Shown here piece by piece: positions 8,411-28,551 of a DNA stretch of 64,000 bases. Below the pieces are notes generated by a model. That model made no database searches and was not told where the DNA came from. It saw nothing but the letters and a program-made list of their open reading frames with translations. Within the stretch, counting starts at the first letter, position 1, and every line of letters starts with the position of its first letter. Source of the stretch: Lachnospiraceae bacterium (lineage in GTDB: Bacteria; Bacillota; Clostridia; Lachnospirales; Lachnospiraceae). The stretch covers positions 23,017 to 87,016 of the forward strand of contig JAAVZU010000027.1 in assembly GCA_022791815.1 (NCBI GenBank), given 5' to 3'. A program made the translations under genes and the position numbers.

Positions 8411-8471
8411 TACATCACTCCTTATTCTGAAATTAATAATTAATAAAATTTTTTCAAAGGCTACTCTATCT

Positions 8472-8973: not shown

Positions 8974-8987
8974 CGCAATTTATAATT

Positions 8988-10331: not shown

Positions 10332-10344
10332 TTACATATCCTCC

Positions 10345-10890: not shown

Positions 10891-10959
10891 CTGAACACCG
10901 TTCCTTTCTATATTTTTAGTCATAACTGTTCTGGTCTGTGTTCCCTTCACAGTTTGAAC

Positions 10960-13116: not shown

Positions 13117-13180
13117 CCCCTTCTCCTTTCTTTCCTTAATTCCATCTTATTTCTAACTAAACCTCAATTATCATTTTATT

Positions 13181-13573
13181 CTAAATAAGATTCAGTTTTT
13201 TTAATGCCTGTTCAAACCGCTCTTGATTGATTGGTTTACCAGAATAAATTGTACATCCTAGTTCAAATGCCATCTTAACATTCTCTTCATCATTCAAAGC
13301 AGTTGTCATAATAACCTTAACAGCTTTGTCTTTAGGAATATTCCTTTCTTTTTCTAAATTACGAATACCCACAAGAGACTGATATCCATCCATAACTGGC
13401 ATCATAATATCAAGACATACCAAATCATACGGCTCTCCATCCTCCAATGCCATCATAAATGCATCAACTGCTTCCATTCCATCTACAGTTACATCGCATT
13501 CACCATACTTTGACAAGAAATTCATCATAAATTTTCTTGTTACAAAATCATCTTCTGCCAATAGAATCTTCAT
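13181..13573 (-). CDS. CheY-like response regulator of the chemotaxis operon
   Basis: This 130-residue receiver has D8/D9, phospho-acceptor D55 in CLDIMMPVMDGYQ, T90/T91 and K113 in SGKP. It lies between cheA and cheB, where a CheY is expected. The sequence is close to the receiver at 1443-1838 and less like textbook CheY, so I do not give it the cheY symbol. The window holds no fliM, cheC or cheD, so its downstream target is unknown: it might drive a motor encoded elsewhere or a non-motility output. Confidence 0.9.
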   Translation of the reverse strand: MKILLAEDDFVTRKFMMNFLSKYGECDVTVDGMEAVDAFMMALEDGEPYDLVCLDIMMPVMDGYQSLVGIRNLEKERNIPKDKAVKVIMTTALNDEENVKMAFELGCTIYSGKPINQERFEQALKKLNLI

Positions 13574-13585
13574 ACGCTTTCTCCT

Positions 13586-14614
13586 TTACATTTTATTTAA
13601 TATGGAATATGTCCTTCTAGGAATATCTGACAATTTCTCCTGATGCTGTACTGCACCTAAATCATAGGCAACCTTTGGCATTCCATAAACTACACAAGTA
13701 GATTCATCCTGTCCAATGGTTTTCGCACCAGCATTTCTCATTGCCAAAAGTCCCTTTGCACCATCACCACCCATTCCCGTTAAAATAATTCCTACCGCAT
13801 CAGGACCAGCTGCTTTCGCAACAGATTCAAACAGCACATCCACAGATGGACAATGCCCATTTACCTTTGGTCCTGATTTTATTTCTACTTGATAGGTTCC
13901 ATTTACTTTAAGAAGACGCATATGTCTGTCTCCTCCGGGAGCAATCAACATGTGTCCTGGCTTTACTCTGTCTCCTGTCTCTGCTTCTTTCACTTGGATC
14001 CGGCACTGGTCATTCAGCCTCTTTGCATACATTTGCGTAAATCCTGGCGGCATGTGCTGTACAACAACTATTCCTGGAATATCTGCTCCAAATTCCTTGA
14101 CAACAGCAAGGATAGCTTCTGTACCACCTGTTGAAGCACCAATTGCCACAACCAAATCATTCTTCTTCACTGGAAGATGCTGTTCTTCGTTAGACATAGC
14201 CATTTTCTTTATATTGCTGATTTTAGCAGTAGATGCAATCTTAATTTTAACTAAAAGCTCATTTCTAATAAAATTCTCCAATTGTAGTTTGCTTGTTGCA
14301 ACAGGCTTCGCAACAAAATCCACCGCCCCAGCATTCAATGCATCAAACACCTTATCACTAAGAGAACTAATAACTACAACTGGGAGTGGATATTGAGGAA
14401 TAAGCTTTCTAAGAAATTCAATGCCACTCATTCTTGGAAGTTCCACATCCAATGTCATAACATCTGGCTTGTATGCTAAAATAGCATCTCTCGCCTCAAA
14501 GGGATCCTCTGCTGTCCCCACAACTTGTATTGCAGGATCCTTGTTCAAATTTTGAACCAATAATTCTCTAAACACAAGAGAATCTTCTACTATTAAAACT
14601 CTAATTGGTCTCAT
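13586..14614 (-). CDS. cheB: Protein-glutamate methylesterase CheB
   Basis: CheB removes methyl groups from (and deamidates) chemoreceptors for adaptation. The 342-residue protein has an N-terminal receiver with D56 in VMTLDVELPRMSG and a C-terminal esterase domain. The catalytic triad is visible: S161 in AIGASTGGTEAI, H187 in VVVQHMPPGFT and D284 in GMGGDGAKGL. The length and layout are standard. It sits between cheR and the CheY-like gene, and phosphorylation of the receiver by the CheA of this operon would activate it. Confidence 0.95.
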   Translation of the reverse strand: MRPIRVLIVEDSLVFRELLVQNLNKDPAIQVVGTAEDPFEARDAILAYKPDVMTLDVELPRMSGIEFLRKLIPQYPLPVVVISSLSDKVFDALNAGAVDFVAKPVATSKLQLENFIRNELLVKIKIASTAKISNIKKMAMSNEEQHLPVKKNDLVVAIGASTGGTEAILAVVKEFGADIPGIVVVQHMPPGFTQMYAKRLNDQCRIQVKEAETGDRVKPGHMLIAPGGDRHMRLLKVNGTYQVEIKSGPKVNGHCPSVDVLFESVAKAAGPDAVGIILTGMGGDGAKGLLAMRNAGAKTIGQDESTCVVYGMPKVAYDLGAVQHQEKLSDIPRRTYSILNKM

Positions 14615-14641
14615 ACAATAATCTCTTCCTTTTTCCCAAAT

Positions 14642-15454
14642 CTATTCTTGTTTTCTAAATATTGATGGTTGGATAATCTCAAAAGGAATACTATTCCTGT
14701 CAAGAGTCTCCGTGGTTCCTATGAACAGATATCCTCCTGGTTCCAAATAATCATATACTTTTCTAAGCAACTCTTGTTTGGTTGCCTTATCAAAATAGAT
14801 CATAACATTACGTAGAAATATTGTATGCATTCTTTTCTTAAAAGGGAATGGATCCATCAAATTAAACTGACGAAAAATTACCTCTTGCTTCAAATTTTCT
14901 TTTACCATATATTGACCTGTTCTGGCAATGGATTTAAAAAAATGGTTTTTCCACTGTTCAGGGACATTTTTCAGTTGTTCATTTGTATAGATACCACCTA
15001 TCGCCTGTTGTAATGCTTGAGTAGATATATCTGTCGCCAATATTCTAGTATCCCACTGCTTGTGTTCCAGTCCAAAAAAATCTGTTAAAACCATAGCTAT
15101 CATATACGGCTCTTCGCCTGTAGATGCAGCACCGCACCAGACACGCAGTTCCTTTTTGTCACTTTCTTTTCTTTTTAGCCAAGGAAGAACTACACCTCTA
15201 AAATATTCAAAGTGCTCAAATTCCCTCATAAAATATGTATGATTTGTTGTTAAGAAATTCACCAGCATTTTCTCTTGCATACCAGTTTTGTCATTCTCTA
15301 CAACATCCATAAACTGATTGAAATCTGTCCAGTTATTTGCTTTAATATAATTCTCCAGCCGGCCATTTACAATAATCTTCTTCTGGCTTAAATCTATGCC
15401 ATAACGCTGTTTCACAAAAACTACAATTCTTCTAAACTCCTCATCTGTTATCAA
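14642..15454 (-). CDS. cheR: Chemotaxis protein methyltransferase CheR
   Basis: CheR methylates glutamates of chemoreceptors with S-adenosylmethionine. The 270-residue protein has the N-terminal helical domain and the SAM-binding domain with WCGAASTGEEPYMIAM, ILATDIS, and FLRNVMIYFD, all typical. The frame starts with TTG at 15454; GGGAGGA lies about 9 bp upstream and no ATG in frame is better placed. The partner esterase cheB follows after 27 bp, and the receptor gene lies at the end of the same operon. Confidence 0.93.
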   Translation of the reverse strand: MITDEEFRRIVVFVKQRYGIDLSQKKIIVNGRLENYIKANNWTDFNQFMDVVENDKTGMQEKMLVNFLTTNHTYFMREFEHFEYFRGVVLPWLKRKESDKKELRVWCGAASTGEEPYMIAMVLTDFFGLEHKQWDTRILATDISTQALQQAIGGIYTNEQLKNVPEQWKNHFFKSIARTGQYMVKENLKQEVIFRQFNLMDPFPFKKRMHTIFLRNVMIYFDKATKQELLRKVYDYLEPGGYLFIGTTETLDRNSIPFEIIQPSIFRKQE

Positions 15455-15520
15455 AACTTCATTCCTCCCGCCAAAATAAAATCACTTTTTTCATTGTACC
15501 ACTCTTAATAAGGCACAAAA

Positions 15521-16579
15521 TTAGCATAATTGACGTGATATTTTATAACATATATTATAAATATCAGGATTAAATTTTATCCCTGACTCCTTATCCATAA
15601 TGTCAAGGGTTTCCTCTCTCGTGTGTCCCCTCTCTGTTAGTGTGCAATATTCCTCCACGACAGAAACAATTTGTGCCCCAAGAGGAATGGCATCTTCCTT
15701 CAAACCATCAGGATATCCACTCCCATCCCAGTTTTCATGATGATAATGGGCAATATCAATCGAGGTACTGATAAAGTCGTTATAATCATTATTAACATAG
15801 AGATCACTTAAAAACTTTGCACCTATTTGAGTATGACTTTGTTTTATCGTAATTTCCTCTCTGGTTAATCCAGTTTCTTTGTGCAGAATCTCTGTAGAAA
15901 CACCTATATTGCCTATATCACAAAGAGGCGCTGCTAACTCTATTGTGTCAATATATGTATCGGAAATCTTTCCTTCAAATAAAGGAGAAAGCTGCATTCC
16001 TTGTGCCAATATCCTGCAATTGCACCCAAGTCTCTTCATGTGCTCTTGCTCATAAGAAGCATTCTGTGCTGCAATATTTGCCAAAGCATATAATATATTC
16101 TTTTTTTCTAATTCCATCTGTCTTAGTTGCTCATTTACAGAAATTTGAAGCCTTCTGTTCATTTGCATCAGATCTCTATTTGCTTCATACAACCGCAAAC
16201 GGACACCTACACGTGCCTTTACAATTTCAGGAATAAATGGTTTTGTAATATAATCCTCTCCTCCAAGGGTGAAACCCTCAATAATATCCCTTGGATCGTC
16301 AAATGCTGAAATAAATACAACTGGAATATCTCTTGTTTTTTCATTTTCTTTTAGAATCCTGCATAGCTCATAACCATCAATTCCTGGCATGGAAATATCT
16401 GTTAAAATCAACTGCGGGCAGCTCTCTTTCATAATTTCCAGTGCTACTTCCCCACTCTCTGCATAGATGGGATAATAACCCATATTTTTTATGATTTCAC
16501 CTAAAACTACCCTATTCATCTCCACATCATCTATAATAAGAATCTTTCCTTCATCCATATCCTTATCACTATAACCCAT
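15521..16579 (-). CDS. Receiver-HD domain response regulator (HD-GYP type, degenerate HD)
   Basis: This 352-residue protein has a receiver domain with D61 (LTDISMPGIDGYEL), a coiled linker (about 135-165) and a C-terminal HD-GYP-type domain that in relatives hydrolyses cyclic di-GMP. The later motifs HTQIGAKFL and HHENWDGSGYPDGL are intact, but the namesake HD motif, usually HDIGKIG, reads CDIGNIG. The metal-binding His is thus Cys and the Lys is Asn, so activity may be altered or lost. It follows the kinase gene after 19 bp, so that kinase is its likely phosphate donor. A start at codon 8 is also possible. Confidence 0.85.
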   Translation of the reverse strand: MGYSDKDMDEGKILIIDDVEMNRVVLGEIIKNMGYYPIYAESGEVALEIMKESCPQLILTDISMPGIDGYELCRILKENEKTRDIPVVFISAFDDPRDIIEGFTLGGEDYITKPFIPEIVKARVGVRLRLYEANRDLMQMNRRLQISVNEQLRQMELEKKNILYALANIAAQNASYEQEHMKRLGCNCRILAQGMQLSPLFEGKISDTYIDTIELAAPLCDIGNIGVSTEILHKETGLTREEITIKQSHTQIGAKFLSDLYVNNDYNDFISTSIDIAHYHHENWDGSGYPDGLKEDAIPLGAQIVSVVEEYCTLTERGHTREETLDIMDKESGIKFNPDIYNICYKISRQLC

Positions 16580-16598
16580 ACATACACCTTCTCTCTGG

Positions 16599-18035
16599 TT
16601 ATAAGCAATTATTCAACGCTTCATATCCAACAATTACTTTGTCATAGTTTTCTTTTTGAATCGCCATTTTCAATCTTAAAACCAAACGGCTTACCTCTGG
16701 TGGAGCTCCCTCTGTTAATTGTTTGATTGTATCCATAAACATCTCTGCTTTTTCCCAATTTTCCAATTCTACACACAGAATTAACTTAGAAAGATTCTTC
16801 TTAAGGTTCTCTATATTCTCTGGTGTGCCATATCTTCTGATATTCTCTGCCTCTTGTCTCTCCTCATCCATGGAAATTGCAGTTGGCGAAGTAGAAATAA
16901 ATGACTCCTCTTTTATATCTGACAGTAATGATACGTTGTCTTCTCCTTCACAAAGTCCAACCCAAATAGAAAATGAAAAAGTGCTTCCTCTGTCTTTCTC
17001 ACTCTCCACTTCAATTCTTCCACCCATCAACTCTACCAATTGTTTACAAATATTAAGTCCCAGACCTGTACCCCCATACTTTCGGGAAATAGAGGCATCT
17101 ACCTGTGAAAAACTTTGAAACAATTTATCCCTATCTGTTTTTTCAATTCCAATACCTGTATCTGATACAATAAAAAACAATTCTATTCTATCATTTACTT
17201 GAGCCGTTTTAAGTACTTCAACAGTAATTTTACCTAAAGAAGTAAACTTCTGTGCATTAGACACAAGATTGTTAAGAATCTGTACAATTCTAAGCTCATC
17301 AGCAATAATATATTCTGGGATCTTAGGCGATACAGTCATAAAAAAGCCAAGACCTTTTTCTGTAATCTTATTTATGTGATTTTCCTTCATATAATTCAAC
17401 ATATTTCTAAAGTGAAATCTACGTGGTTCCAAGGAAAACTTTCCTGCTTCCAACTTTGAAAAATCCAGAATATTATTAATAATTTTGTTCATATCATCAC
17501 AGCAGCGTTCTATAAGATGCAGGGAACGTTCAAGCCGGGCATCTCTTTTTTCACTCAATAGTTCTCTTACATTGCCAAGCACACCATTTACTGGTGTCCT
17601 CAGTTCATGTGTAACATTGGCAACAAACTCAGACTTAACCTTCATAGCCTGCTGTGCTTCCTGTTTAACCTGTTCTATTTCCCTGCTTAAAAATTCTTTT
17701 TCTAGTATGTCATTCGCCATACATATATATATATCGGCATTCATACTACTATTCATAATCCTTGCTTCTACTGGAAAACAAGTAAGATTCTTACGATATG
17801 CTACAAGATTTTGTGGTTCGTGTCCAAATAGATAATCCGTCTCAAAACCATCTTCACAATTCTTAAAAGTATTAGGAAATACATCACTAATATATTTATC
17901 ATATACATCTTCTTTGTATTCCAACTTCTGTCTTGCTATGGCATTGGCATAAGAAATTTTCCCTGTCTTATCAAATATAAGAATCATCTCAAGTGCATCC
18001 TCTATAGGAAATATACAATCTTCACTTTGACCCAT
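16599..18035 (-). CDS. PAS-containing sensor histidine kinase
   Basis: The protein starts best at ATG 18035 (478 residues), because GGGGGGAA lies 9 bp upstream; a TTG at 18101 would add a hydrophobic stretch of 22 residues but has only a weak site. Domains: PAS (about 10-110), HisKA with the phosphorylated His in VANVTHELRTPVNGVLG, and a GHKL ATPase with NNLVSNAQKFT, DTGIGIE and GGTGLGLNICK. A C-terminal helical tail of about 120 residues shows no recognised motif. From the chosen start there is no membrane segment, so it would sense in the cytoplasm. It is the first gene of the eight-gene chemotaxis operon. Confidence 0.88.
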   Translation of the reverse strand: MGQSEDCIFPIEDALEMILIFDKTGKISYANAIARQKLEYKEDVYDKYISDVFPNTFKNCEDGFETDYLFGHEPQNLVAYRKNLTCFPVEARIMNSSMNADIYICMANDILEKEFLSREIEQVKQEAQQAMKVKSEFVANVTHELRTPVNGVLGNVRELLSEKRDARLERSLHLIERCCDDMNKIINNILDFSKLEAGKFSLEPRRFHFRNMLNYMKENHINKITEKGLGFFMTVSPKIPEYIIADELRIVQILNNLVSNAQKFTSLGKITVEVLKTAQVNDRIELFFIVSDTGIGIEKTDRDKLFQSFSQVDASISRKYGGTGLGLNICKQLVELMGGRIEVESEKDRGSTFSFSIWVGLCEGEDNVSLLSDIKEESFISTSPTAISMDEERQEAENIRRYGTPENIENLKKNLSKLILCVELENWEKAEMFMDTIKQLTEGAPPEVSRLVLRLKMAIQKENYDKVIVGYEALNNCL

Positions 18036-18817
18036 AATACATATTCCCCCCAGACAAAATAAAATAGGCAGCAAAACAAAGAATATTTTCTTTGCTGTCA
18101 AATATTCTTTATCTTTCTTAATAATTTCTTAAATACTCCCCCTAACTATCCTTAAAACCTTTTGATGTATTCTATGAATAACCAGATGTAATTCACCGTT
18201 CATAAATATATGAAATGCCATAATGAATATATGTATACAATATCTACTACTTATATATCATATTTTATAAAAATTTTATATGCATTTCATAATTTTTTAT
18301 GCTATTATAATACCATTATTCCATTGTGATTGTCAATAATATCTCTTTTATTTTTCCTATCTGCTATTATATATTGTAATATTTCAAACCTACCATGCTC
18401 ACAAAAACAAATCTAGACCATTAATTCTTCATTATTTGTAAATCCTATATACTTCTGCATCATATCTAAACAATTATCTTCGTGGGGATAAAAAAGTCCA
18501 TTCAGAAATATTCAAAAATTCTTATGAAAAATTCCAATAAACCAATAGAAATTTTCAATAAGATTTGATATAAGAATTAAATCAAGGCGTTGATTATCAA
18601 GCTCCTTGCTTTTTATAATTTTTCGCTTCTTGTTTTATAAATTTATGCTTTATGAAAAAAAATCCAAGTGTAATAAATACTTAATGGTAATTTAGTGTTA
18701 TGTTTCATAATCAAAAGGTAAATTCAAAAAATAATCTTGTCCTAATCACTTTTTACCTTCTTTACAGCAATTTTTTCATAGTACAAAACCCATGAAACAC
18801 CTTGATTTTACAGTGTT
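18036..18817. other. Long AT-rich gene-free stretch between the chemotaxis operon and the broken protease
   Basis: No convincing open frame or RNA gene is visible. On the minus strand TTGACA (18096-18101) is a consensus -35 element upstream of the kinase, but no good -10 follows at 17 bp. On the plus strand 18135-18142 reads ACTCCCCC, the same octamer found at the left junction of the riboflavin element (28218-28225); see findings. A strong, G-rich start site near 18050 belongs to the kinase. Confidence 0.5.
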
Positions 18818-20162
18818 TTAATAACTTAACACTTTATTGCCATAATCCCCGAAGCTACGGTTTGGTACAGTCATATTTTCTTTTCTAGCCCCTCTTATCA
18901 AATAATATTTGCAGGTAACTGTATTTATCCTAAAATCATTTTGACCAATAATTGCCCATTCCAAAAGCATCGCAGCTACTCCTGCTGTATGAGCGGCTGA
19001 TATACTAGTTCCACTTCGTTCCCCATAGCGCAGCCTGGACACTGGACCATATACATCAACTCCAGGTGCAGCAATATCTGGTTTAATAGAGTTATTAGCA
19101 GTATATCCTCTACTGGATTCCAAAAAAATACTATTATTCCGATGATTGAAGGCAGCTACTGTTATAACCCGGTTTACATTTCCTGGTTCACACAGAGTCA
19201 CATCAGGTGAAGGATAAATAAATGCTGTCCTTTCGGAAATAAATTCCCGCATAGGAAGCCATATATTATAGGGGATACTTTCCGTATCTAAATTATATAC
19301 CCTGATACGCCAAATACCTTCTGTTGGATTTCTTACCCGAATGGCTATTAATTCTTTCCCTGAATAGTATTCAACCCTTTCATAATGTACAAAGATCTTG
19401 GTTTTCTCAAATACAAAATCAATAGTTTGTTCATAACTTCGCACAGGAACGCGCTCCGTAAATTCTCCAGACGGTGAAACAAATCCTATGGACAAAGAAC
19501 CTATGGTACCAGACCATAACTCCATAGTAAAATCTTCATTCTCCTCTACATCCAGCTCCACTTCTTCATCTGCTCCGCCTCCCAATATACTGGCAAAATG
19601 ATGCCCTAAATTGTTTTCATTTCCTCCTGCTACCACAGTACAAACCCCTCCTATGGAACCTACCTGATTCAGATAGGCTCCAAGAGGCAACATTCCCTCA
19701 TGGCTTCCAGAATTGGAACCAACTCCTAAGCAAATAACAAGTGCCCGCTGCATTTGTCTGGCTTTTTGCCTTAAATATTCTACTCCCATCATAATATCAT
19801 TTTCCTGATAACAAGGTATTCCACTCTTTATTCCATAAAAGCTACGCAAGTTTTCTTTTGCCTCTTTTAGCTTTACCATAAGTATAGTAGCATTTGGTGC
19901 TACCCCAGTAAAATCTTCCTCCTCTGAAATATTTCCTGCAGCAATAGCGGCCATAAAAGTACCATGATAATCTATATCCTGATGTGGTATCATTTCTCTT
20001 GGATTATCACTTTGCAAGGCTCTTGTAATATCCTCTTTTTTATATTCCACTCCATAAGGAACCTCTCCATTTCCTTCTTCTGTCTGCACCGATTGATCCC
20101 AGATATACGCAATGCGGCTACTGCCATCTTGATTTTGAAAAAGAGGATTAGTAAAATCTATC
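18818..20162 (-). pseudogene. CspB-like S8 (subtilisin) protease, 3' fragment separated from its 5' part
   Basis: Homology begins with IDFTNPLF near 20161 and runs to the stop at 18818, about 447 residues. The catalytic His is in DYHGTFMAA and the catalytic Ser in GTSISAAHTAG, with the inserted jelly-roll-like part typical of CspB-type proteases between them. The catalytic Asp motif DTG is absent here and sits at the end of the fragment at 28216-28551. The open frame continues upstream of the junction into element DNA to a stop at 20210-20212 without ATG, GTG or TTG; the first possible start is GTG at 20089. As it stands this fragment cannot make an active protease. Excision of the intervening DNA would restore the gene. 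Confidence 0.9.
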
Positions 20163-20175
20163 CCCTCTTGAGTTT
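20155..20175 (-). other. Right junction of the riboflavin element (attachment-site half)
   Basis: On the minus strand the sequence reads ACTCAAGA then GGGG then ATAGATTTTAC. The part after the G run is protease coding sequence; the part before it is element DNA just behind the last recombinase gene. The G run matches the one at the other junction (28221-28225). Confidence 0.75.
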
Positions 20176-20183
20176 CTTTTTTG

Positions 20184-21059
20184 CTAAATTTTATGAAACA
20201 ATTCTTCTGTTACAATCTTTTCATGATGATCTTTTTGAATTATCCATTGACATGATGAAGTTTTTCGGCTTGGTCCTCCGACATATTCTTTCTCATATTT
20301 CCCTTGAATCATTTCGCCGATATATACTCTGTTTTTTAAGATATTCCATATAGTAGCTGGATGCCAATGATATTCTTTTTTACTTATTTTGCCTGCCCGG
20401 TATTCTTTTGGCGTTTTTATCTGCATTTCATTAAATAATTTTGCTATTTCTGTAACACTATAACCTTCTGCTGCTAATTGGAATATTTTTCTAACTACTT
20501 TGGCTTCCTCTTCTTTTATTCTAATTTTATGTCTATCAGAAGGATGTTTTTCATAACCAAAAGGCGTATTTGCACTTACATAAATGCCTGCCTTTTTTTT
20601 AGCTTTTAATGCACTTTTTACCTTATGGGAAATATCCTTGCTGTATAAGTCATAACATAGCCCACGAAACTGCATATCCAATCCTAGAATTTGCTCTGGA
20701 TATTGCTGGCTGTCATATCCATCATTTACTGAAATAAAACGAACTTGATGTGCAGGAAATAAAATCTCCAAATACTCACCCAATAATAAATAATCCCTTG
20801 CCAACCTGGAAAAATCTTTTACCAGAATACAATCTATTTCTTCCTCTTTTACCAGACTAAGCAGTCTTTTTAATGCAGGACGTTCCTCATTTATCCCGCT
20901 GTATCCATCATCCGAAAACTCCACTATCTTGTAATTTTCCCCCAAAAACTCTTTTTGAATAAACTTTTGTAATAAATTTCTTTGTCCAGAAATACTCTGG
21001 CTCTCTTCTCTACTAAAATTCTCTTTTGAGATCCGCAAATATATTCCAATCTTATACAT
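20184..21059 (-). CDS. Short serine recombinase, third gene of trio B (catalytic and recombinase domains only)
   Basis: The protein has 291 residues: resolvase domain with S11 in IYLRIS and VKDFSRLARDYLLLGEYL, and recombinase domain with FGYEKHPSD and WNILKNRVYIGEMIQGKYE. It ends at EELFHKI, where the trio A counterpart goes on for about 200 residues of zinc ribbon and coiled coil. The stop lies about 20 bp from the element junction, so the shortening may mark the element end instead of random decay. Catalytic residues are kept. It follows the second recombinase after 22 bp and overlaps the open frame of the protease fragment by 26 bp. Confidence 0.88.
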   Translation of the reverse strand: MYKIGIYLRISKENFSREESQSISGQRNLLQKFIQKEFLGENYKIVEFSDDGYSGINEERPALKRLLSLVKEEEIDCILVKDFSRLARDYLLLGEYLEILFPAHQVRFISVNDGYDSQQYPEQILGLDMQFRGLCYDLYSKDISHKVKSALKAKKKAGIYVSANTPFGYEKHPSDRHKIRIKEEEAKVVRKIFQLAAEGYSVTEIAKLFNEMQIKTPKEYRAGKISKKEYHWHPATIWNILKNRVYIGEMIQGKYEKEYVGGPSRKTSSCQWIIQKDHHEKIVTEELFHKI

Positions 21060-21081
21060 TTTCTATCTCCTTCTATGCCCT

Positions 21082-22053
21082 TTAATTGTTTTCTTGCTGG
21101 ATTTTTTTTGCTATTTCAAAAAACTTTTTTTTACATATTATTGGAGGATGTGTATTTCTTTGTACCAAATTCTCCAATAATTCCAATTCTCTCTCGGATC
21201 GGATTTTATATCTTTCTCCCGGTTTTTTTACCTTTACCATACATCCAAGATATATGGGATTGGTCAACATTTGTTTTATTCCTGTCACAGACCAATATTT
21301 TACATTAGATTTTTTTATTTCTTTTACTTTCCCCGTTTTTCGATATTCTCTTGGTGGGTTAATATTTCTTTGATGCAATATTTCTACAATATCTTTTATT
21401 TCTTCTTTGTCGGAATACCACTCATATATTTCCCTTACAATCTCTGCTGTTTCTTGTTCTATTTCCAGTTTTCTCCCTTCTATGCCTATTGTTATTTGAT
21501 ATCCATAGGGTGGTATTCCTCCAATATATTCTCCCTTTTCCCATTGCTGTTGTTTTACAGATGCTACTTTTCTGGAAATATCTCTTGCATACATTTCATT
21601 TACCAGATTCTTTAAAGAAAATACTTCTTCGCTTTCTCCCCACCTAAAACTGTCAAAAGAATCGTTTACTGCAATAACCCGTATATGATATTCGGTCAGA
21701 AATTTCTCTACATAATATCCTGTCTCCACATAATTTCTTCCAATCCGTGACAAATCCTTTGCTATAATGCAATTAATTTTTCCTTTTTTTGCGTCCTCAA
21801 TCATTTTTCTAAATCCATTTCTGTGAAAATTCATACCGCTTCTCCCAATATCAATATACAAATCTACCCATATCATATCAGGATTTTTCTTTATATACTC
21901 TCTACAAATAGCAATCTGGGTATCAATAGACTCCTCTTTTCGTTTATTCCCCTTCACTGATAATCTGGCATAAATTCCAACTTGATACTTCTTTTGTGGT
22001 TCTATTTTTTCCTTTGTTATCCTCTCAATTTTCTTTCTTGAACTTCTAGCCAA
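21082..22053 (-). CDS. Short serine recombinase, second gene of trio B
   Basis: The protein has 323 residues. It has the same basic N-terminal extension as its trio A counterpart, with the nucleophile at the same position (S32 in GIYARLS), plus IIAKDLSRIGRNYVETG and a recombinase domain. It ends shortly after a VQRNTHPPIICKKKF segment and lacks both zinc ribbon and coiled coil. The start overlaps the end of the first recombinase by 37 bp, which suggests translational coupling. In trio A the second protein has also lost the zinc-ribbon cysteines but keeps its coiled coil. Confidence 0.88.
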   Translation of the reverse strand: MARSSRKKIERITKEKIEPQKKYQVGIYARLSVKGNKRKEESIDTQIAICREYIKKNPDMIWVDLYIDIGRSGMNFHRNGFRKMIEDAKKGKINCIIAKDLSRIGRNYVETGYYVEKFLTEYHIRVIAVNDSFDSFRWGESEEVFSLKNLVNEMYARDISRKVASVKQQQWEKGEYIGGIPPYGYQITIGIEGRKLEIEQETAEIVREIYEWYSDKEEIKDIVEILHQRNINPPREYRKTGKVKEIKKSNVKYWSVTGIKQMLTNPIYLGCMVKVKKPGERYKIRSERELELLENLVQRNTHPPIICKKKFFEIAKKIQQENN

Positions 22054-23291
22054 AAAACCACCTCTATCTTATCTTTATCATAAACATATATTCTTTCTAC
22101 AAATGTAGTTAATAACTTTCTATCTACTTTTTCTGCCTGAATTGTTGGCATTTGTTCTAATATTTTTTGTTCCAATACTTCCTCTGCTATGCTATGACGG
22201 GTACATCCCCTTCCCCTGTTATGAGTTCCACAAATATAATAGATTCTATCCCCTGCCTTACCATGATTTTTCCTTCGGTGCATTTGTTCCCCACAATCCC
22301 CACAGTATAAAAATCCTGCAAATTTATAGGATGTTTTCTCTTTTTTTAATGCCCTGCAGTCTGCCATAAGAAGTCTACCCACTAGTTCAAAATCTTTCTT
22401 ATTTATCAGCGGTTCATGCATACCTGAAACTCTGACCCACTGGTCTTTATCTTTTATCTGTACTTTCTTCATTTTATAATTTAGCTTTCCTGTTTTTCCC
22501 TGTACTAATGTACCAAGATAAGTTTCATCCTGCAAAATTCTTCGGATAGTTACCTGTGACCATTGGGTATTTTCATCTTTTACAAATCCGGAAAAATACT
22601 GCTCCCCTTTGGATTTTTTATAAGCATAAGGTGATAACACTCCTAATTTATTTAACTTATCTGCAATCGCATTTGGACTATATCCTTCTATTTTCCATTG
22701 AAATATTTTTTTTACTATGCAGGCAGCCTCTTCATCCACTACAAGATGGTGATGGTTACCTCTCTCTCTTTTATATCCATATACGGGAAATGCCCCAATA
22801 AATTCCCCCTTTTCTCTTTTTATTTTCTGGCAGCTTCTTACTTTTTTAGAAATATCCCTGCAATAAAAATCATTGATAAAGTTTTTTACAGGAACCATTA
22901 AATCTCTCTCATTAAAATCTGCATACAGAGAATCAAAGTTATCATTAATGGCAATAAACCGAACAAAAAAAGCCGGAAAGGTTTTTTGAATTAACCTTCC
23001 GACTTCTATATAGTCTCGTCCCAATCTGGATAAGTCCTTTACAATAACACAATTTACCACACCATCTTCAATTGCCTTCATCATGGATAAAAATCCTGGT
23101 CTGTTAAAATGTAATCCTGACCAGCCATCATCTACATAAGTATCATAAATAGCCATATCTTTCTGTTCATCAATAAAATTTTCAATCAATGTCCTTTGAG
23201 AAGAAATACTATTACTTTCTTTTTGATAATCTGTAAATGCTTCTTTATCCTCCCTGCTCAATCGAAGATATATGGCAACCTTATAGAGCAA
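22017..23291 (-). CDS. Serine recombinase with zinc ribbon, first gene of trio B
   Basis: This 424-residue protein starts at TTG 23291 with AGGAAGTGG upstream. It has a resolvase domain with S12 in IYLRLSRED and VIVKDLSRLGRDYIEVG, a recombinase domain, and an intact zinc ribbon (YCGDCGEQMHRR, then YYICGTHNRGRGCTRHS). Almost no coiled coil follows: the chain jumps to the conserved C-terminal FVERIYVYDKDKIEVVFWL. Compared with the 539-residue counterpart in trio A about 100 residues of coiled coil are missing. It is the only member of trio B that keeps a zinc ribbon, so it may supply DNA binding for the set. Confidence 0.9.
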   Translation of the reverse strand: MLYKVAIYLRLSREDKEAFTDYQKESNSISSQRTLIENFIDEQKDMAIYDTYVDDGWSGLHFNRPGFLSMMKAIEDGVVNCVIVKDLSRLGRDYIEVGRLIQKTFPAFFVRFIAINDNFDSLYADFNERDLMVPVKNFINDFYCRDISKKVRSCQKIKREKGEFIGAFPVYGYKRERGNHHHLVVDEEAACIVKKIFQWKIEGYSPNAIADKLNKLGVLSPYAYKKSKGEQYFSGFVKDENTQWSQVTIRRILQDETYLGTLVQGKTGKLNYKMKKVQIKDKDQWVRVSGMHEPLINKKDFELVGRLLMADCRALKKEKTSYKFAGFLYCGDCGEQMHRRKNHGKAGDRIYYICGTHNRGRGCTRHSIAEEVLEQKILEQMPTIQAEKVDRKLLTTFVERIYVYDKDKIEVVFWLEVQERKLRG

Positions 23292-23339
23292 TTCTTACCA
23301 CTTCCTACATGGGGTTCTGTTATTATTTTATTGTGTATT

Positions 23340-23412
23340 GTAACAGTTCAGAACCACGAACATCTACCTTTAAGCCCATAAATATTTGCCTTTGGCGAGG
23401 GGGCTTAAACAT
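23340..23412. repeat. Dispersed inverted repeat, family 1 (composite form), between ribH and trio B
   Basis: GTAACAGTTCAGAACCACGA is followed by a hairpin, on the minus strand GTTTAAGCCCCC...GGGCTTAAA, with an inner GCCAAAGGC. Similar composites occur at 40499-40563 and 46926-46998. The hairpin could weaken read-through from the riboflavin genes into the recombinases, but no U run follows it. Confidence 0.6.
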
Positions 23413-23439
23413 TGCAAAAGTTATTTTTTCATATGAAAC

Positions 23440-23910
23440 TTAAAATTGACTTACTAAATTTACCATTTCAATAGCAGAAAGGGCACAATCATATCCCTTA
23501 TTTCCTGCCTTTGTTCCAGCACGCTCAATTGCCTGCTCAATATTTTCTGTTGTTACAATGCCAAATAAAACAGGAATTCCTGTGTTCATTCCTACTTGTG
23601 CAATTCCCTTAGATACTTCATTACATACATAATCATAATGACTAGTTGCACCACGGATTACCGTTCCCACACAAATAACAGCATCAAACTTTCCAGACTC
23701 CGCCATCTTCTTTGCCATAACTGGAATTTCAAATGCTCCTGGCACCCATGCTGCTGTAATATTTTCTTCTTCTACACCATGTCTTACCAAACCGTCTACT
23801 GCTCCGCTTAAAAGTTTACTTACAATAAATTCATTAAAACGTGCTGCAACGATTCCTACTTTCATACCTTCTTTTGCTACTAACTTTCCTTCTACTACTT
23901 TAATTCCCAT
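23440..23910 (-). CDS. ribH: 6,7-dimethyl-8-ribityllumazine synthase
   Basis: RibH condenses the dihydroxybutanone phosphate made by RibB with the pyrimidine made by RibD to give lumazine. The 156-residue protein (ATG at 23910, AAGGAG upstream; a TTG at 23928 is less likely) has [19 protein letters not shown] and [13 protein letters not shown] with the catalytic His, then [17 protein letters not shown]. The length is typical. It is the last gene of the riboflavin operon and lies inside the integrative element. Confidence 0.96.
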
Positions 23911-23951
23911 ATCTATTCTCCTTTTCAAATTTTAGTTGTCTTTTTGTCTTT

Positions 23952-23979
23952 GTAACTATCCAGATTTATGAGCAGTTAC
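23952..23979. repeat. Dispersed inverted repeat, family 1 (short form), between ribBA and ribH
   Basis: GTAACTATCCAGATTTATGAGCAGTTAC is one palindrome-like unit with imperfect arms; it matches the family end sequence GTAACTGTTCA. It sits in the 76-bp gap between the two genes. Confidence 0.5.
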
Positions 23980-23986
23980 CTAAATT

Positions 23987-25198
23987 TTATAAATCAATTT
24001 CTTTAAAGACATGTCCCATACGTTCTTTTTTTACTTTCAGATAATCTACATTCGTATCCTTTGGGGCAATTTCAATAGGTATTCTCTTTGTTACCTTTAT
24101 ACCAAATCCATCTAATCCATATACCTTTGTTGGATTATTTGTCAGTAAATTTAAAGACTTCACTCCCAGGTCTCTTAATATTTGTGCACCTACCCAATAT
24201 TCACGAAGGTCTGGTGCGAAACCAAGTTTTATATTGGCATCTACGGTATCATACCCTTGCTCTTGCAGCTCATAGGCCTTTAACTTGTTAATTAGTCCTA
24301 TTCCTCGTCCTTCCTGACGCATATAAAGAACAATTCCTCGTCCTTTTTCTTCAATGCATTTCATGGCAGATGCCAACTGTTCCCCACAATCACAACGGTT
24401 AGACCCAAATACATCTCCTGTCAGGCATTCCGAATGTACACGGCATAGCACATCCTCACCATCGTTAATATCCCCTTTTACCAATGCTACATGATGTTCC
24501 CCTGTTATATCATTTACATATCCAAACATTTTAAAATTACCATATTTTGTAGGCATTTTTACTTCTGCCTCTTTAATTACATGTTTTTCATGAATGCGGC
24601 AATAATCCTGCAAAGCCTTAATGGTAATAAATTTCAATCCATATTCTTTAGCAAGTTCCCAAATCTTTGGTGTCTGCATCATGGTTCCATCCTCATCCAT
24701 AATTTCACAGCAAAGTCCACATTCTTTTAAACCTGCTAAGCGACATAAATCTACAGTTGCTTCTGTATGCCCATTTCTAGTCAACACACCACCATGTCTT
24801 GCTACCAAAGGAAACATGTGTCCTGGATGACGGAAATCTTCTGGTTTTGCACCTTCTTCCACACACTTCATGGCAGTAAGAGAACGCTCCACAGCTGAAA
24901 TACCTGTAGTTGTATCCACATGGTCAATAGATACCGTAAACGCTGTTTCATGATTATCTGTATTATGTGTAACCATTTGTGCCAGACCAAGCTTGTCCGC
25001 CAATTCCTTAGACATAGGCATACAAATTAGTCCTTTTGCTAATCTTGCCATAAAATTTACATTCTCTGGCGTGGCAAACTCAGCAGCACAAATCATATCT
25101 CCTTCATTTTCTCTATCTGGATCATCTGTAACCAAAATTATTTTGCCATTTCTTAAATCTTCCAGTGCTTCTTCTACCGTGTTATATTCGTATTCCAT
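23987..25198 (-). CDS. ribBA: Bifunctional 3,4-dihydroxy-2-butanone 4-phosphate synthase / GTP cyclohydrolase II
   Basis: The N-terminal half (RibB) converts ribulose 5-phosphate and shows [17 protein letters not shown] and [14 protein letters not shown]. The C-terminal half (RibA) opens GTP and shows [20 protein letters not shown] with the zinc cysteines and [17 protein letters not shown] place the start at ATG 25198 (403 residues), with AAAGGAGT about 11 bp upstream; GTG 25210 overlaps that site. Both domains look complete. Together with RibD, RibE and RibH this makes a full pathway from GTP and ribulose 5-phosphate, except the unassigned phosphatase. Confidence 0.95.
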
Positions 25199-25253
25199 CC
25201 TATAAAACACTCCTTTCTAATGTTATTGTAATAGGTATTTGCAATCTGAATAA

Positions 25254-25898
25254 TTAAAAACCATATTTCCGCAAAAATTCCTCTGTAATAATACTTTCTT
25301 TTTGCTTTTGTTGTGGTTCTAAAAAACGTTGTACGTATTTTCCTATAACATCGTTTTCCAAATTTACTTTATCCCCCACTCTTTTTTGAGATAATATAGT
25401 ATTTCCTCCTGTGTGTGGGATAATAGATACCGCAAAGTCCTTTTCTGTAATTCTAGCTACCGTAAGACTGATACCATCTATTGCAATAGAGCCTTTTTCT
25501 ACAATTCCTTGTAGAATTTTTCTTGGTGCCGAAAGGGTATACCAGACAGCTGTTCCTTCTGGCTCTATAGAAATAATCTCGCCCATTCCATCAATATGCC
25601 CAGATACAATATGTCCACCAAATCTTCCATCTGCTGGCATAGCCCGTTCTAAATTCACAAAACTACCCATCTGCAAATCTCCAAGGCTGCTTCTCTGAAA
25701 AGTCTCTCCCATAACATCTGCTGTAAAATTGCCCCCATTTATACTAGTGACTGTCAAACAGACACCATTGACAGCAATACTATCACCTATCTTCGTTCCT
25801 TCTAGTATAATATCTGCCATAATAGAAAGCTTTCCAGTTACACCATTTTTTTCAATTCTTGCTACTTTTCCCACTTCCTCTACAATTCCCGTAAACAT
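25254..25898 (-). CDS. ribE: Riboflavin synthase alpha chain
   Basis: Riboflavin synthase dismutates two lumazine molecules into riboflavin. The 214-residue protein starts MFTGIVEEVGKV and consists of two homologous lumazine-binding repeats: the first with DSIAVNGVCLTVTS, the second with GSIAIDGISLTVARI, and FGGHIVSGHIDGMG between them. The length is normal. It lies between ribD and ribBA. Confidence 0.95.
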   Translation of the reverse strand: MFTGIVEEVGKVARIEKNGVTGKLSIMADIILEGTKIGDSIAVNGVCLTVTSINGGNFTADVMGETFQRSSLGDLQMGSFVNLERAMPADGRFGGHIVSGHIDGMGEIISIEPEGTAVWYTLSAPRKILQGIVEKGSIAIDGISLTVARITEKDFAVSIIPHTGGNTILSQKRVGDKVNLENDVIGKYVQRFLEPQQKQKESIITEEFLRKYGF

Positions 25899-25938
25899 AA
25901 CTGCCTCCTTTCTTTGAAGGATATTTGTAATTTTTATT

Positions 25939-25967
25939 GTAACTGTTCATGGTTCTGAACAGTTACT
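25939..25967. repeat. Dispersed inverted repeat, family 1 (short perfect form), between ribD and ribE
   Basis: GTAACTGTTCA-TGGTTC-TGAACAGTTAC is a perfect inverted repeat with 11-bp arms. It occupies the intergenic gap and could form a hairpin in the operon mRNA. Nearly the same unit is at 62558-62586, outside the element. Confidence 0.7.
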
Positions 25968-25969
25968 TT

Positions 25970-27067
25970 TTATTTCTTCATTTCTATTAATATATCTTCC
26001 CCAATTTTTTGAATCTGTTCTACCGAAAAAGAATATGCCTCCCTTGCTAAAGAAATACCTTCTCCTTCTACTGGTGTTTTTGACTGGCTTCCTCCAAACA
26101 TCTTTGGGGCCATATACACGTATGCCTTTTTTACCAGTTCCTCTCTCAATGCTGTATCATTTAGAATTCCTCCACCTTCCAGAAGTATACTATCTATTCC
26201 TTTTTCCCCAAGAATTTTCATAAGATATGTCAAATCAATCTTCTCTTCTTTTTTTGGAACTTCTATTATCTCCACATGTTTCTTGATAAGCTGTTCTTTT
26301 TTTTCTTTTTGCTTCTTTGTAAATTCCTGTCTTTTCACAGCCACAATCGTAGGAATCTTCTCTGCTGTCTCCACAATTTGACAATCTATTGGTATTCTAA
26401 GATTGCTGTCACAAATAATCCGGACAGGATCTCTTCCCTCTGGCATCCGGCAATTTAACATAGGATTGTCAGCAAGTAAAGTTCCAATTCCAATCATAAT
26501 CCCCATATAACGATGCCGAAGAAACTGTACATGCTCTCTTGCTTTTTCTCCCGTAATCCACTTAGAATCTCCTATCTTAGTAGCAATCTTTCCATCTGCT
26601 GTCATGGCATATTTCATCGCTACATAAGGTTGTTTCGTCGTAATATAATGAAAAAATATCTCATTTATTGCATCACATTCTGCCCTGCAAAAATCCTCTA
26701 TTACTTCAATACCTGCATCTCTAAGTTGTTTTACACCTTTACCTGCCACCAAAGGATTAGGGTCTCTGGAACCAATCACTACCCGTTTAATCTTATTTTC
26801 CATAATTGCCTCTGTGCAAGGTGGTGTCTTTCCATAATGGCAACAAGGTTCTAAAGTTACATATATAGTAGCACCTTTCGCGTCTTCCGTTAAATGGGCA
26901 ATCGCATTTCTCTCTGCATGTAATTGTCCACAACACTCATGATAACCTTCTCCTATAATCTTTCCATTTTTTACAATTACGGCTCCAACTATAGGATTAG
27001 GGTTTGTATATCCAATTCCCTTTTTGGCTAGTTCAATTGCCCGTTCCATATATTTTCTGTCTATCAT
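25970..27067 (-). CDS. ribD: Bifunctional pyrimidine deaminase / reductase
   Basis: RibD deaminates and reduces the product of GTP cyclohydrolase II. The N-terminal deaminase domain has the zinc motif HAERNAI and PCCHYGKTPPCTEAI. The C-terminal reductase domain has KYAMTADGKIATKIGDSKWITG, and LLEGGGILNDTAL near the end. The length is 365 residues, standard for the fused enzyme. AAAGGAAG precedes ATG 27067. It is the first gene behind the FMN riboswitch and thus the start of the regulated operon. Confidence 0.96.
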   Translation of the reverse strand: MIDRKYMERAIELAKKGIGYTNPNPIVGAVIVKNGKIIGEGYHECCGQLHAERNAIAHLTEDAKGATIYVTLEPCCHYGKTPPCTEAIMENKIKRVVIGSRDPNPLVAGKGVKQLRDAGIEVIEDFCRAECDAINEIFFHYITTKQPYVAMKYAMTADGKIATKIGDSKWITGEKAREHVQFLRHRYMGIMIGIGTLLADNPMLNCRMPEGRDPVRIICDSNLRIPIDCQIVETAEKIPTIVAVKRQEFTKKQKEKKEQLIKKHVEIIEVPKKEEKIDLTYLMKILGEKGIDSILLEGGGILNDTALREELVKKAYVYMAPKMFGGSQSKTPVEGEGISLAREAYSFSVEQIQKIGEDILIEMKK

Positions 27068-27114
27068 ATTTCTACTTCCTTTTATACAAACAAAGTGGAT
27101 AGTCCCACATCAGC

Positions 27115-27150
27115 TCTCCTGCCCCTCAAGATTGAGGGGATTGCATATAA
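27115..27150. repeat. Dispersed palindromic repeat, family 3 (copy 2) in the ribD leader
   Basis: CTCCTGCCCCTCAAGATTGA continues to a perfect CCCCTCAA-GA-TTGAGGGG palindrome (27122-27139) followed by ATTGCATATAA. It lies between the riboswitch terminator and ribD. Confidence 0.55.
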
Positions 27151-27190
27151 TTATTTTATACTACAGGAAATGTAAAATACTTTCCCATAA

Positions 27191-27222
27191 TATAAAAAGC
27201 CTTAGAATACTTCTAAGGCTTT
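27191..27222 (-). terminator. Terminator hairpin of the FMN riboswitch
   Basis: On the minus strand AAGCCTTAGAAGTATTCTAAGGCTT forms a strong hairpin followed by TTTATA. It lies between the FMN aptamer and ribD and is the likely off-switch formed when FMN is bound. Confidence 0.85.
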
Positions 27223-27283
27223 TTTGCTTTCACTGTAAAAAACATTTGCAAAATCCTATCTAATTATTTTGCAAATATTCTCT

Positions 27284-27402
27284 CACTTCTTCTCTCATCC
27301 AGACTATACTGTCGGCTTTGGAATTACACCAAATCATGCCTTTGGGCTTGCGGGCTTTTACCGCCGGTAGGGATTTACACCCTGCCTTGAAGAATTCTTT
27401 TT
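27284..27402 (-). ncRNA. FMN riboswitch (RFN element)
   Basis: The minus strand carries the conserved blocks of the RFN aptamer: CTTCAAGGCAGGGTGTAAAT, CCCTACCGGCGGT, AAGCCCGCAAGCCC and CCAAAGCCGACAGTATAGTC followed by TGGATGAGAGAAG. These are the highly conserved junction sequences of FMN riboswitches. An intrinsic terminator follows about 60 bp downstream, so control should be by premature termination when FMN is plentiful. The aptamer precedes ribD and would control ribD-ribE-ribBA-ribH, and by read-through perhaps trio B. Confidence 0.96.
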
Positions 27403-27439
27403 CAATTTGTTTTTATTATATACCTATCCTTTCCATAAA

Positions 27440-27931
27440 TCAATAGGAAATTACACTCCAAGCCTCCAATAAACGCTCCAAACTATAAGCAGCATTTGCA
27501 GGACTAGTAGATGGCAGCACAGTGCAAGGCAGTGTAGTTAAGGACTCTGCATACTTTTCGTACAATCCTCCTGCTGTTTTTCCATTTGCATAGATTTTCT
27601 TAATGGATGTTTTTCTCAAAAGTCCTAAAATATCTGCTGGTACAACATTTTTAATACTACTATCACTAGAACCTTTAATCTCACAGCTTGCAATTACATC
27701 CCACAAAGCAATGCTATGCTCCAGCAACATGTTTTTCTTTTCCTCTATGGTTACAGGTTCCTTAACTTTCAATAACCCACTTATCACCTTCCAAAAACGG
27801 TTTCTTGGATGTCCATAATAAAATCCCTCCTCCCTTGATTTTACAGAGGGCAGGCTTCCTAAAATTAATATTTTTGATTTTTCGCTGTATATCGGCTCAA
27901 AGGTATGTGTCACTTTTTGATATTCTCCCAT
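27440..27931 (-). CDS. Hypoxanthine (deoxyinosine) DNA glycosylase, UDG superfamily
   Basis: This 163-residue protein has ILILGSLPSVKSREEGFYYGHPRNRFWKVISG, shown here in part as LILGSLPSVKS and YYGHPRNRFW, then ALWDVI, and PSTSPANAAYS near the C-terminus. This is the pattern of the family 6 uracil-DNA-glycosylase-like enzymes that remove hypoxanthine from DNA. AAAGGAGATTTT precedes ATG. It stands upstream of the riboflavin riboswitch, in the same direction, inside the integrative element; its link to riboflavin or to recombination is unknown. It could act in repair of deaminated bases. Confidence 0.82.
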   Translation of the reverse strand: MGEYQKVTHTFEPIYSEKSKILILGSLPSVKSREEGFYYGHPRNRFWKVISGLLKVKEPVTIEEKKNMLLEHSIALWDVIASCEIKGSSDSSIKNVVPADILGLLRKTSIKKIYANGKTAGGLYEKYAESLTTLPCTVLPSTSPANAAYSLERLLEAWSVISY

Positions 27932-27947
27932 AAAATCTCCTTTCTTG

Positions 27948-28180
27948 ATTTAGCATCTGTAGGCAATTGCGAAACTCTCATTAACTTAAATTATTTTGTG
28001 CAGATTTACATGTCATTAGCAAGGTGCTTTCGAAACCGTCAGTACTTAGGTGCTGTATTTTAGCACCTTATGTACTGTTACGGTTGAGAGCAGTGCAAAC
28101 GTGCCTTGCGTTGATATGTAAATTTTGCACAAAAATTCTATGAGTAAATTGAGTTTCGCAAATGCATATTTAGCATCTGT
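27948..28180. repeat. Long imperfect palindrome flanked by 13-bp direct repeats
   Basis: A block of about 207 bp begins with a CAATTGCGAAACTC arm and ends with the complementary GAGTTTCGCAAATG arm. Further paired parts inside are TTGTGCA/TGCACAA, TTTACAT/ATGTAAA, GCAAGG/CCTTGC, AACCGT/ACGGTT, GTAC and AGGTGCT-GTATTTT-AGCACCT at the centre. Outside the arms lies the direct repeat ATTTAGCATCTGT at 27948-27960 and 28168-28180. It resembles a small non-coding inserted element, or a large structured RNA, and lies just inside the left end of the riboflavin element. No reading frame is visible. Confidence 0.75.
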
Positions 28181-28209
28181 TTAGGAATTAGCAACTCCTC
28201 TGACAATAT

Positions 28210-28235
28210 TATCACTCACTCCCCCGTATCTACAA
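28210..28235 (-). other. Left junction of the riboflavin element (attachment-site half)
   Basis: On the minus strand protease sequence GTAGATAC runs into GGGGG and then GAGTGAGTGATAATA of the element. The stop TGA (28216-28218) closing the 5' protease fragment is supplied by the element. The G run is the only sequence shared with the other junction at 20162-20165. Confidence 0.75.
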
Positions 28236-28551
28236 AACCAATCAAAATATTATTTCCAAGTAAATCAAAATCGGGCTGTCTCCGTATCCGAAGGACACCT
28301 ATGTTCTCTACACTGGAAGTATCCAACAAACCAAAACATTTTGGTACTCCTCCATAGCCATACTTTTTAAAAGATATTGGTCCCGATTTCTCAATATTTT
28401 CATAAATAGTAACAAAATCTTCGTTGATAACCTGCATACAATCTGGACGAAATATTTCTACAACTGCATTTGCATTTCCTCCTGTTTCAATAATATACTC
28501 TGCATATTCTTCTGAAAAAGCATACGACCTGCATGATTCAAATAAATCCAT
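28216..28551 (-). pseudogene. CspB-like S8 protease, 5' fragment with catalytic Asp
   Basis: From ATG 28551 (AGGAAGGA upstream; an upstream start at 28584 is less likely) the frame codes for 111 residues that match the N-terminus of CspB-like subtilases. GGVPKCFGLLDT is the region preceding the catalytic domain, and the frame ends GNNILIGFVDTGE. The final Glu and the stop come from the inserted element; the family continues DTGID. The fragment thus breaks immediately after the catalytic Asp motif and joins in frame to the part at 18818-20162. Csp proteases of sporulating Clostridia act in germination; that this one does so is inference. Confidence 0.9.

Follow-up and report, generated by a model that had tools for sequence, protein, structure and literature searches.

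Why does a bacterium keep a riboflavin operon inside a protease gene? The question is raised by a stretch of 64,000 nucleotides from a Lachnospiraceae bacterium (GenBank assembly GCA_022791815.1, contig JAAVZU010000027.1, positions 23,017 to 87,016; hereafter the window), in which an original prediction had placed a riboflavin operon and its flavin mononucleotide (FMN) riboswitch in a recombinase-bearing element within a Csp-like protease gene. Matches to Pfam, RF00050 and TIGR04274 agree with that description. The prediction missed a second element that splits the same gene. This gene, csp1, which encodes a Csp-related S8 protease, is cut twice and lies in three exons, all on the minus strand; element A, with the riboflavin operon, separates exons 1 and 2, and element B, with a chemotaxis operon, separates exons 2 and 3. 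We argue that A and B are probably skin-like intervening elements, built on known serine-integrase triplets, that are excised in sporulation and carry native housekeeping operons as cargo. The window's own draft genome, G000, was compared with the other genomes of its genus, seven in all (G000-G006).

The 5' half of csp1 starts with the ATG at 28551 and runs to the motif GFVDTG, directly after whose DTG element A splits the gene, leaving one Glu codon and a stop; the 3' half picks up at 20161 with IDFTNPLF. Exons 1 and 2 are true partners, since G004 and G002 carry the gene uninterrupted; neither a complete lack of intact genes nor a wrong 5' partner, on either of which it could have failed, was found. 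The 3' fragment that it proposed, 18818-20162, is the correct continuation of the 5' half but is not complete: the last nine codons before the stop at 18818-18820 are sequence of element B and not of csp1, and the true end lies at 3542-3593. Uninterrupted relatives have a C-terminal end like ...RSFGWGILDVYNTF..., where the 3' half in the window instead ends RSFGDYGNKVLSY, and a six-frame scan recovered the missing end, GWGELDIYNTFISLQRY followed by a stop, at the latter position. Exon 3 thus recovered comprises the last 16 codons of csp1, 15 kb from exon 2, beyond element B. As csp1 is in three pieces, it is cut by two elements of like design, each with its cargo first and its recombinase triplet last, adjoining the next exon.

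The best NCBIfam matches of exon 2 were NF040809 and NF040808, and exon 2 alone lies far under the cut-offs of these CspBA and CspC models (211 against 1250 and 197.4 against 675 bits). When an intact relative (L019) was compared with solved structures, the nearest were Csp germination proteases (9pr9, 4.7e-72; 4i0w, 1.3e-61; 6mw4, 1.9e-57; about 480 residues). This likeness suggests that csp1 encodes a Csp-type germination protease in function as well.

The split at the D site, between DTG and ID, has the riboflavin operon inside it in three of the seven genomes (G000, G001 and G006); in G001 each half is on a contig of its own, the contigs breaking at a repeat. In G003 csp1 is whole at both the D site and the W site, where element B lies in G000, and is cut at a third site, and G005 has a distant protease paralogue only. 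The second split is also present in G001 (C116 and C28), where exon 3 is again followed by hisC. Riboflavin operons stand in other surroundings in G002, G003, G004 and G005; ribBA gives one match in each of the seven genomes, and the FMN riboswitch a single match in six, G004 having a second one below the cut-off. The riboflavin operon in A is the only one found in the G000 draft. Its ribD is closest to that of G004 (72%), followed by 67% in other genera, with 76 of 200 family genomes matched at an E value of 1e-60. Hence, the operon looks native and moved, and not foreign; a recent insertion of foreign riboflavin genes was rejected on this affinity of ribD and on a split common to three genomes. 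Element A is old, judging from its presence in three genomes of which the deepest two are separated by about 0.85 synonymous substitutions per site (dS).

We measured the ratio of nonsynonymous to synonymous substitution rates (dN/dS) by the method of Nei and Gojobori (NG86), pairwise between G000, G001 and G006. Exon 1 gave 0.060 (G000-G006) and 0.068 (G000-G001), and exon 2 gave 0.075 and 0.078 for the same pairs, at a dS of 0.81-0.87 for both exons. In these pairs the riboflavin genes lie at 0.028-0.104, the DNA glycosylase gene of A at 0.125 and 0.095 and the A recombinases at 0.125-0.183; the histidine kinase of the B cargo gave 0.053 (G000-G001), and exon 1 gave 0.101 in the close pair G006-G001. 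The dS of elements and flanks is of the same order (0.29-0.96), and the split was therefore most likely inherited. Constraint reaches into stretches that could hardly be translated in place. Exon 2 begins with 24 codons that lie ahead of any start codon, and these differ between G000 and G006 by eight synonymous and four nonsynonymous changes (dN/dS 0.067, p = 9e-5); exon 3, behind an in-frame stop, differs by six synonymous and two nonsynonymous changes from G006 (p = 1.7e-4) and by five and two from G001 (p = 1.3e-3). Across the same split in a second lineage, that of the Roseburia metagenome-assembled genomes with loci L102-L104, exon 1 gave 0.010 and exon 2 gave 0.065. Between the in-frame stop and the split there is no ATG, GTG or TTG in G000, G006, L102, L104 or L245, which rules out independent translation of the 3' half in these five; a possible in-frame start codon precedes exon 2 in L069, L073, L131 and L246. 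By these substitution counts, the pieces of csp1 are under purifying selection as code, including the stretches without a usable start.

Dinucleotides shared near each junction were rated by the dyad symmetry of the attachment site (attP) that they imply and by the reading frame of the rejoined gene. Ten junction pairs were assembled and nine scored, the tenth giving no result as its contig begins too near the junction. At the junctions lies a GG, positions one and two of a Gly codon, and a crossover there would rejoin csp1 in frame. This GG has the sole best attP symmetry in five of the nine pairs (B in G000 and in G001, L073, L104 and L246) and is tied for best in two (A in G000 and in G006, where the tie in A is with an out-of-frame GG). 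When 14 element ends were aligned ungapped on it, a pattern like GCAAnTAnTTGACAnnAGAG preceded the core, clear in the ends at the W site, at the E site described below and in several of those at the D site, and weak or absent in A, L073, L102 and L104. At the B junction, CGTAGCTTCGG is common to G000 and G001; G006 differs at three of the 11 bases, which, small as these numbers are, would fit an att sequence that has ceased to matter in G006. We infer from symmetry and frame that crossover would occur at the Gly-codon GG.

Splits of this kind recur in csp genes of other Lachnospiraceae. In seven of the best 80 of 287 loci, the protease frame begins at the D site (G001, G006, L069, L073, L102, L104 and L131; exon 1 of L131 was not found in the 10 kb examined). 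The insert of L102 and L104 is hardly more than one serine recombinase gene, and that of L069 measures 1.6 kb. In L073 (1721-8907), the DTG-ID split holds an operon whose genes were read by eye as MoxR-, DUF58- and transglutaminase-like. The genomes of L073 and L131 each have a second csp paralogue that is interrupted at that motif too and lies behind a DUF6870-like gene and a triplet; for these, L245 and L246, exon 1 was not found in the former and both halves were found in the latter. L246 is cut at DSG-ID by hardly more than DUF6870 and the triplet. The paralogue in the L131 genome lacks its C-terminus, and a fitting last exon stands behind another triplet on a different contig (L247). The pieces in L246 and L247 appear to belong together, and this paralogue is probably cut twice, like csp1 in the window.

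In G003, csp1 and csp2 are both cut at the third site, E/Q-W-G. Its csp1 (L021, L015) has the cut at Q-W-G; the C-terminal piece, found on a separate contig, follows the end of a recombinase gene and is in frame with the Gly-codon GG. Its csp2 (L216, G003:C164, 4131-16400) is cut at E-W-G, and between the pieces are ATP synthase genes (A, C, B, part of delta joined to alpha, gamma and beta) and a serine recombinase triplet, two members of which are short; csp2 of G000 is whole, and its neighbours are unlike those of csp2 in G003. In a viral collection, where 102 and 142 recombinase relatives were found (80 of each kept) along with two protease relatives, one-sided splits were seen in two of 146 distinct loci, L341 at the D site and L342 at the E site; L398 and L399 have csp frames that were not seen to be split. 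Outside G000, G001 and G006, the csp split cases are thus L069, L073, L102, L104, L131, L245, L246, L247, L341, L342 and csp1 and csp2 of G003.

In a tree of 34 recombinases, from which streptococcal sequences were left out, rec1, rec2 and rec3 fall into separate groups by position in the triplet, with some forks open. Members from the D site group within rec1 (92/94) and within rec2 (94/88); those of rec3 group without A.rec3, which stays outside. The B recombinases group with those of L247 (100/100), both from the W site. Elsewhere (L214, L217, L219 and L257, read by eye), the ends of triplets or recombinase genes adjoin fragments of flavodoxin, aldo-keto reductase, helicase and TraG-like genes. 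Since triplets end in genes other than csp as well, finding one inside a gene is not enough to imply developmental use.

The link to sporulation was examined in 397 genomes sampled from the larger family (L144-L171, among the matches listed, were used by their N-terminal parts only), after removal of csp-like matches weaker than 1e-20 (n = 17) and of a weak SpoIVA match (n = 1). A csp-like protease and SpoIVA occur together in 255 genomes, csp alone in six, SpoIVA alone in two and neither in 134; a Fisher p for these counts ignores shared ancestry. Within the genus SpoIVA is present in six of seven genomes, and G005 lacks both SpoIVA and an orthologous protease. Upstream of intact csp genes (73, from 78 loci, compared with shuffled sequence; the genes are related by descent), sigma-E-like motifs were found for 24 (shuffle mean 6.7, maximum 12), strict sigma-E-like motifs for 14 (mean 1.8, maximum 7) and sigma-K-like motifs for 11 (mean 0.9, maximum 4), whereas sigma-G-like (5 against 4.4) and sigma-F-like motifs (1 against 0.9) stayed at the shuffle level. 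The recombinase gene has a strict sigma-E-like match upstream in L104 and a loose one in L102. A loose sigma match before A.rec3 in G006 and G001 was given no weight, because it coincides in part with the ribosome-binding site and G000 does not have it. Sigma-E is a mother-cell factor. The csp operon of Clostridium difficile is described as sigma-E dependent, its Csp proteins acting at germination (PMC3789822). These observations together suggest that csp1 is itself a sporulation gene.

Table 1. Coordinates of csp1, elements A and B and neighbouring features in the window, in the order of the minus strand; crossover positions are predictions
Feature	Positions	Strand	Basis
csp1 exon 1, N-terminal part to D-T of DTG	28225..28551	-	homologous to N-terminal part of uninterrupted relatives; Gly codon straddles junction
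Predicted crossover GG, attL of A	28223..28224	-	symmetry and frame; aligned element ends
Element A, about 8.06 kb	20165..28222	-	bounded by split csp1; same boundaries in G006 and G001
Hypoxanthine-DNA glycosylase, uracil-DNA glycosylase (UDG) superfamily	27440..27931	-	PF03167; TIGR04274, 141.5 bits against cut-off of 80
FMN riboswitch	27283..27398	-	RF00050, 112.9 bits; sole match in own genome
ribD	25970..27067	-	Pfam; one match in own genome
ribE, riboflavin synthase	25254..25898	-	Pfam
ribBA	23987..25210	-	Pfam; one match in own genome
ribH	23440..23928	-	Pfam
A.rec3, serine recombinase with zinc (Zn) ribbon, 424 aa	22017..23291	-	Pfam; tree
A.rec2, short serine recombinase, 323 aa, no Zn-ribbon match	21082..22053	-	Pfam; tree
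A.rec1, short serine recombinase, 291 aa, no Zn-ribbon match	20184..21059	-	Pfam; tree
Predicted crossover GG, attR of A	20163..20164	-	symmetry and frame; aligned element ends
csp1 exon 2, from I-D through R-S-F	18851..20162	-	Peptidase_S8; Gly codon 18848-18850 at junction
Predicted crossover GG, attL of B	18849..18850	-	symmetry and frame
Element B, about 15.3 kb	3596..18848	-	bounded by exons 2 and 3; same ends in G001
Chemotaxis cargo: histidine kinase, response regulator-HD (RR-HD) protein, cheR, cheB, cheY-like, cheA, cheW, methyl-accepting chemotaxis protein (MCP)	8988..18101	-	Pfam
DUF6870 protein	8472..8762	-	PF21757
B.rec3, serine recombinase, 539 aa	6791..8410	-	Pfam; tree
B.rec2, serine recombinase, 532 aa	5146..6744	-	Pfam; tree
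B.rec1, serine recombinase, 519 aa	3599..5158	-	Pfam; tree
Predicted crossover GG, attR of B	3594..3595	-	symmetry and frame; aligned element ends
csp1 exon 3, third base of Gly codon, then WGELDIYNTFISLQRY and stop	3542..3593	-	six-frame scan and comparison with relatives
hisC, flanking gene	1981..3039	-	TIGR01141 above cut-off; follows uninterrupted csp1 in G004 and G002

Each element thus has three adjacent serine integrases in one orientation beside its target gene, as in a triplet module, and splits a reading frame next to site-specific recombinases (three in A, three in B), as an intervening element does, with predicted att sites that would restore the frame. A.rec1 and A.rec2 (20184-22053) are far shorter than B.rec1 and B.rec2 and have no Zn-ribbon match, yet they are under constraint. 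DUF6870 adjoins the triplet of B and several others, and it is purely a guess that it could be a directionality factor; element A showed none. The Pfam matches for the main genes in A and B include no conjugation module (relaxase, coupling protein or VirB4) and no phage structural or replication genes, PHROGs not having been run. A repeat of about 210 bases at 27960-28170, between attL of A and the glycosylase gene, is 92% like a copy at a different place in G001, where it stands between the ribBA and ribH genes. Other short repeats lie at 38711-38857, 40498-40583, 46871-47012 and 55994-56180.

Programmed excision is the best reading of this locus because it accounts together for a three-way split, code kept over a long time, junctions that are in frame, recombinases for each junction and a likely role in sporulation. 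The analogy to skin-like elements in the original prediction is borne out to the extent that regulated use is likely, given halves constrained as code and in-frame junctions. We propose that the triplets of A and B would excise both elements precisely when a spore is made, yielding a whole csp1. Excision would be confined to the mother cell, the spore genome keeping both elements, and the mother cell, which is dying, would lose nothing that it needs for long. In a growing cell, loss of A would end riboflavin synthesis, and therefore the cargo would keep the element in the germ line. The agency of the triplets, the timing and the restriction to the mother cell are parts of this proposal.

Several observations weigh against excision in sporulation. 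No excised form, circle or transcript was seen, and in G000 neither exon 1 nor A.rec3 has a sigma-E- or sigma-K-like motif upstream. A whole csp2 paralogue in G000 might cover the function of csp1. Between G006 and G001, exon 2 has a dN/dS of 0.233, with unlike tails included in the count. G006 has no B triplet; its exons 2 and 3 are joined, and its chemotaxis operon is kept, adjoining hisC. The B recombinases of G000 and G001 are about 59-77% alike, against about 88-92% for the chemotaxis genes compared. At the junctions, the best placement in L102 is out of frame, and in L069 a tied in-frame GG lies one base off. The inserts of L069 and L073 contain no recombinase, and relatives of the triplets are often in other genes, csp sequence being present at four of the 146 viral-collection loci, two of them split. 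As to G006, its joined exons are on a different contig from the chemotaxis operon and hisC (L060, L017), and loss, rearrangement or an error of binning are all possible.

A rival reading is that A and B are ordinary mobile elements that leave occasionally, with the protease made only in the few cells or lineages without them and no developmental control. Serine-integrase triplets are described as integration modules of integrative and conjugative elements (ICEs) that disrupt coding genes (PMC4701971), other triplets of the genus end, as read by eye, in genes without an evident sporulation role, and csp1 of G006 manages without a second split. However, both exons and their junctions have been kept across a deep split, A holds the sole riboflavin operon that was found, and none of the genes examined in A and B was a conjugation gene; we consider occasional loss unlikely. 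It is a good deal less probable that the pieces work with no joining of DNA, as polypeptides that assemble or through joining at the level of RNA. That every piece is constrained as code would fit, as would the possible in-frame starts before exon 2 at four loci, but exon 2 has no start codon in the five cases named above, its first 24 codons are constrained between G000 and G006, exon 3 amounts to 16 codons behind an in-frame stop, and it is DNA recombinases that adjoin the junctions.

We likewise see a slim chance, if anything slightly smaller, that excision is regulated but belongs to a different cell type or stage (forespore, germination or a motility switch, for instance). A role of Csp proteins at germination is described in the source on C. 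difficile (PMC3789822), and the G000 genes showed no sporulation-type motif; on the other hand, the same source has csp under sigma-E, and a heritable excision would remove the only riboflavin operon found. That csp1 is dead in this clade, the riboflavin operon having merely landed in a useless gene, is scarcely credible. The gene is in pieces and G000 retains a whole paralogue, but open frames with a dN/dS of 0.06-0.08 at a dS of about 0.85, and constraint that extends up to the junctions, are the grounds for rejecting the dead-gene reading.

Excision of A and B in sporulation would have precedents. The gin element in gerE of Bacillus cereus (28.6 kb, 31 genes) is reported to be non-phage and to have three serine recombinases; its excision in sporulation rejoins the gene, with girA and girB in an operon, girC apart, and GirC and GirX doing the work (PMC5595907). 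A and B are alike in being non-phage elements with three serine recombinases in a likely sporulation gene; they differ in that the recombinases stand side by side as one triplet, there are two cuts in the gene, the cargo is native riboflavin and chemotaxis genes, and excision is predicted. The yin element, which splits yabG of Clostridium botulinum and is reported to be unique to a single strain (PMC10747680), and the skin elements in sigK (PMC5025042) are described as prophage-like, with a serine recombinase and an excision that restores the gene. A and B share with them the splitting of a probable sporulation gene by an element with serine recombinases, whereas the genes examined here include none from phages and the split recurs over several lineages. 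The triplets of streptococcal ICEs are described as three adjacent integrases in one orientation, in position-specific clades, with 2-8 bp repeats and with mutT, traG and hsdM as targets (PMC4701971). The adjacent same-orientation trio, the clustering by position and the insertion inside coding genes are common to both; theirs are in conjugative elements, whereas here no conjugation gene was seen and the targets are csp genes. No published case of a riboflavin-carrying or csp-splitting element was found in the literature searched, which left out most subscription journals.

The sporulation rearrangements considered here for comparison (gin, yin, skin and SPbeta) remove phages or parasitic islands; in the present case, if our reading is true, what is removed would be the cell's own metabolism. 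With housekeeping genes as cargo, such excision could be borne only by a cell that is going to die, and why such splits persist thereby becomes a testable question. A single gene is interrupted by two elements, and splits of this sort have come about repeatedly within one family of genes, in which conserved protein motifs offer natural att sites and a family of recombinase triplets is at hand. For the Lachnospiraceae at large, we put it at even chances that csp genes are docking sites for elements of programmed excision in which native housekeeping operons (riboflavin, chemotaxis, ATP synthase) are parked. Germ line and soma would then differ: the mother cell would discard metabolic genes and assemble a spore gene from up to three DNA exons, and cargo that is needed would make an element very hard to lose from the germ line.

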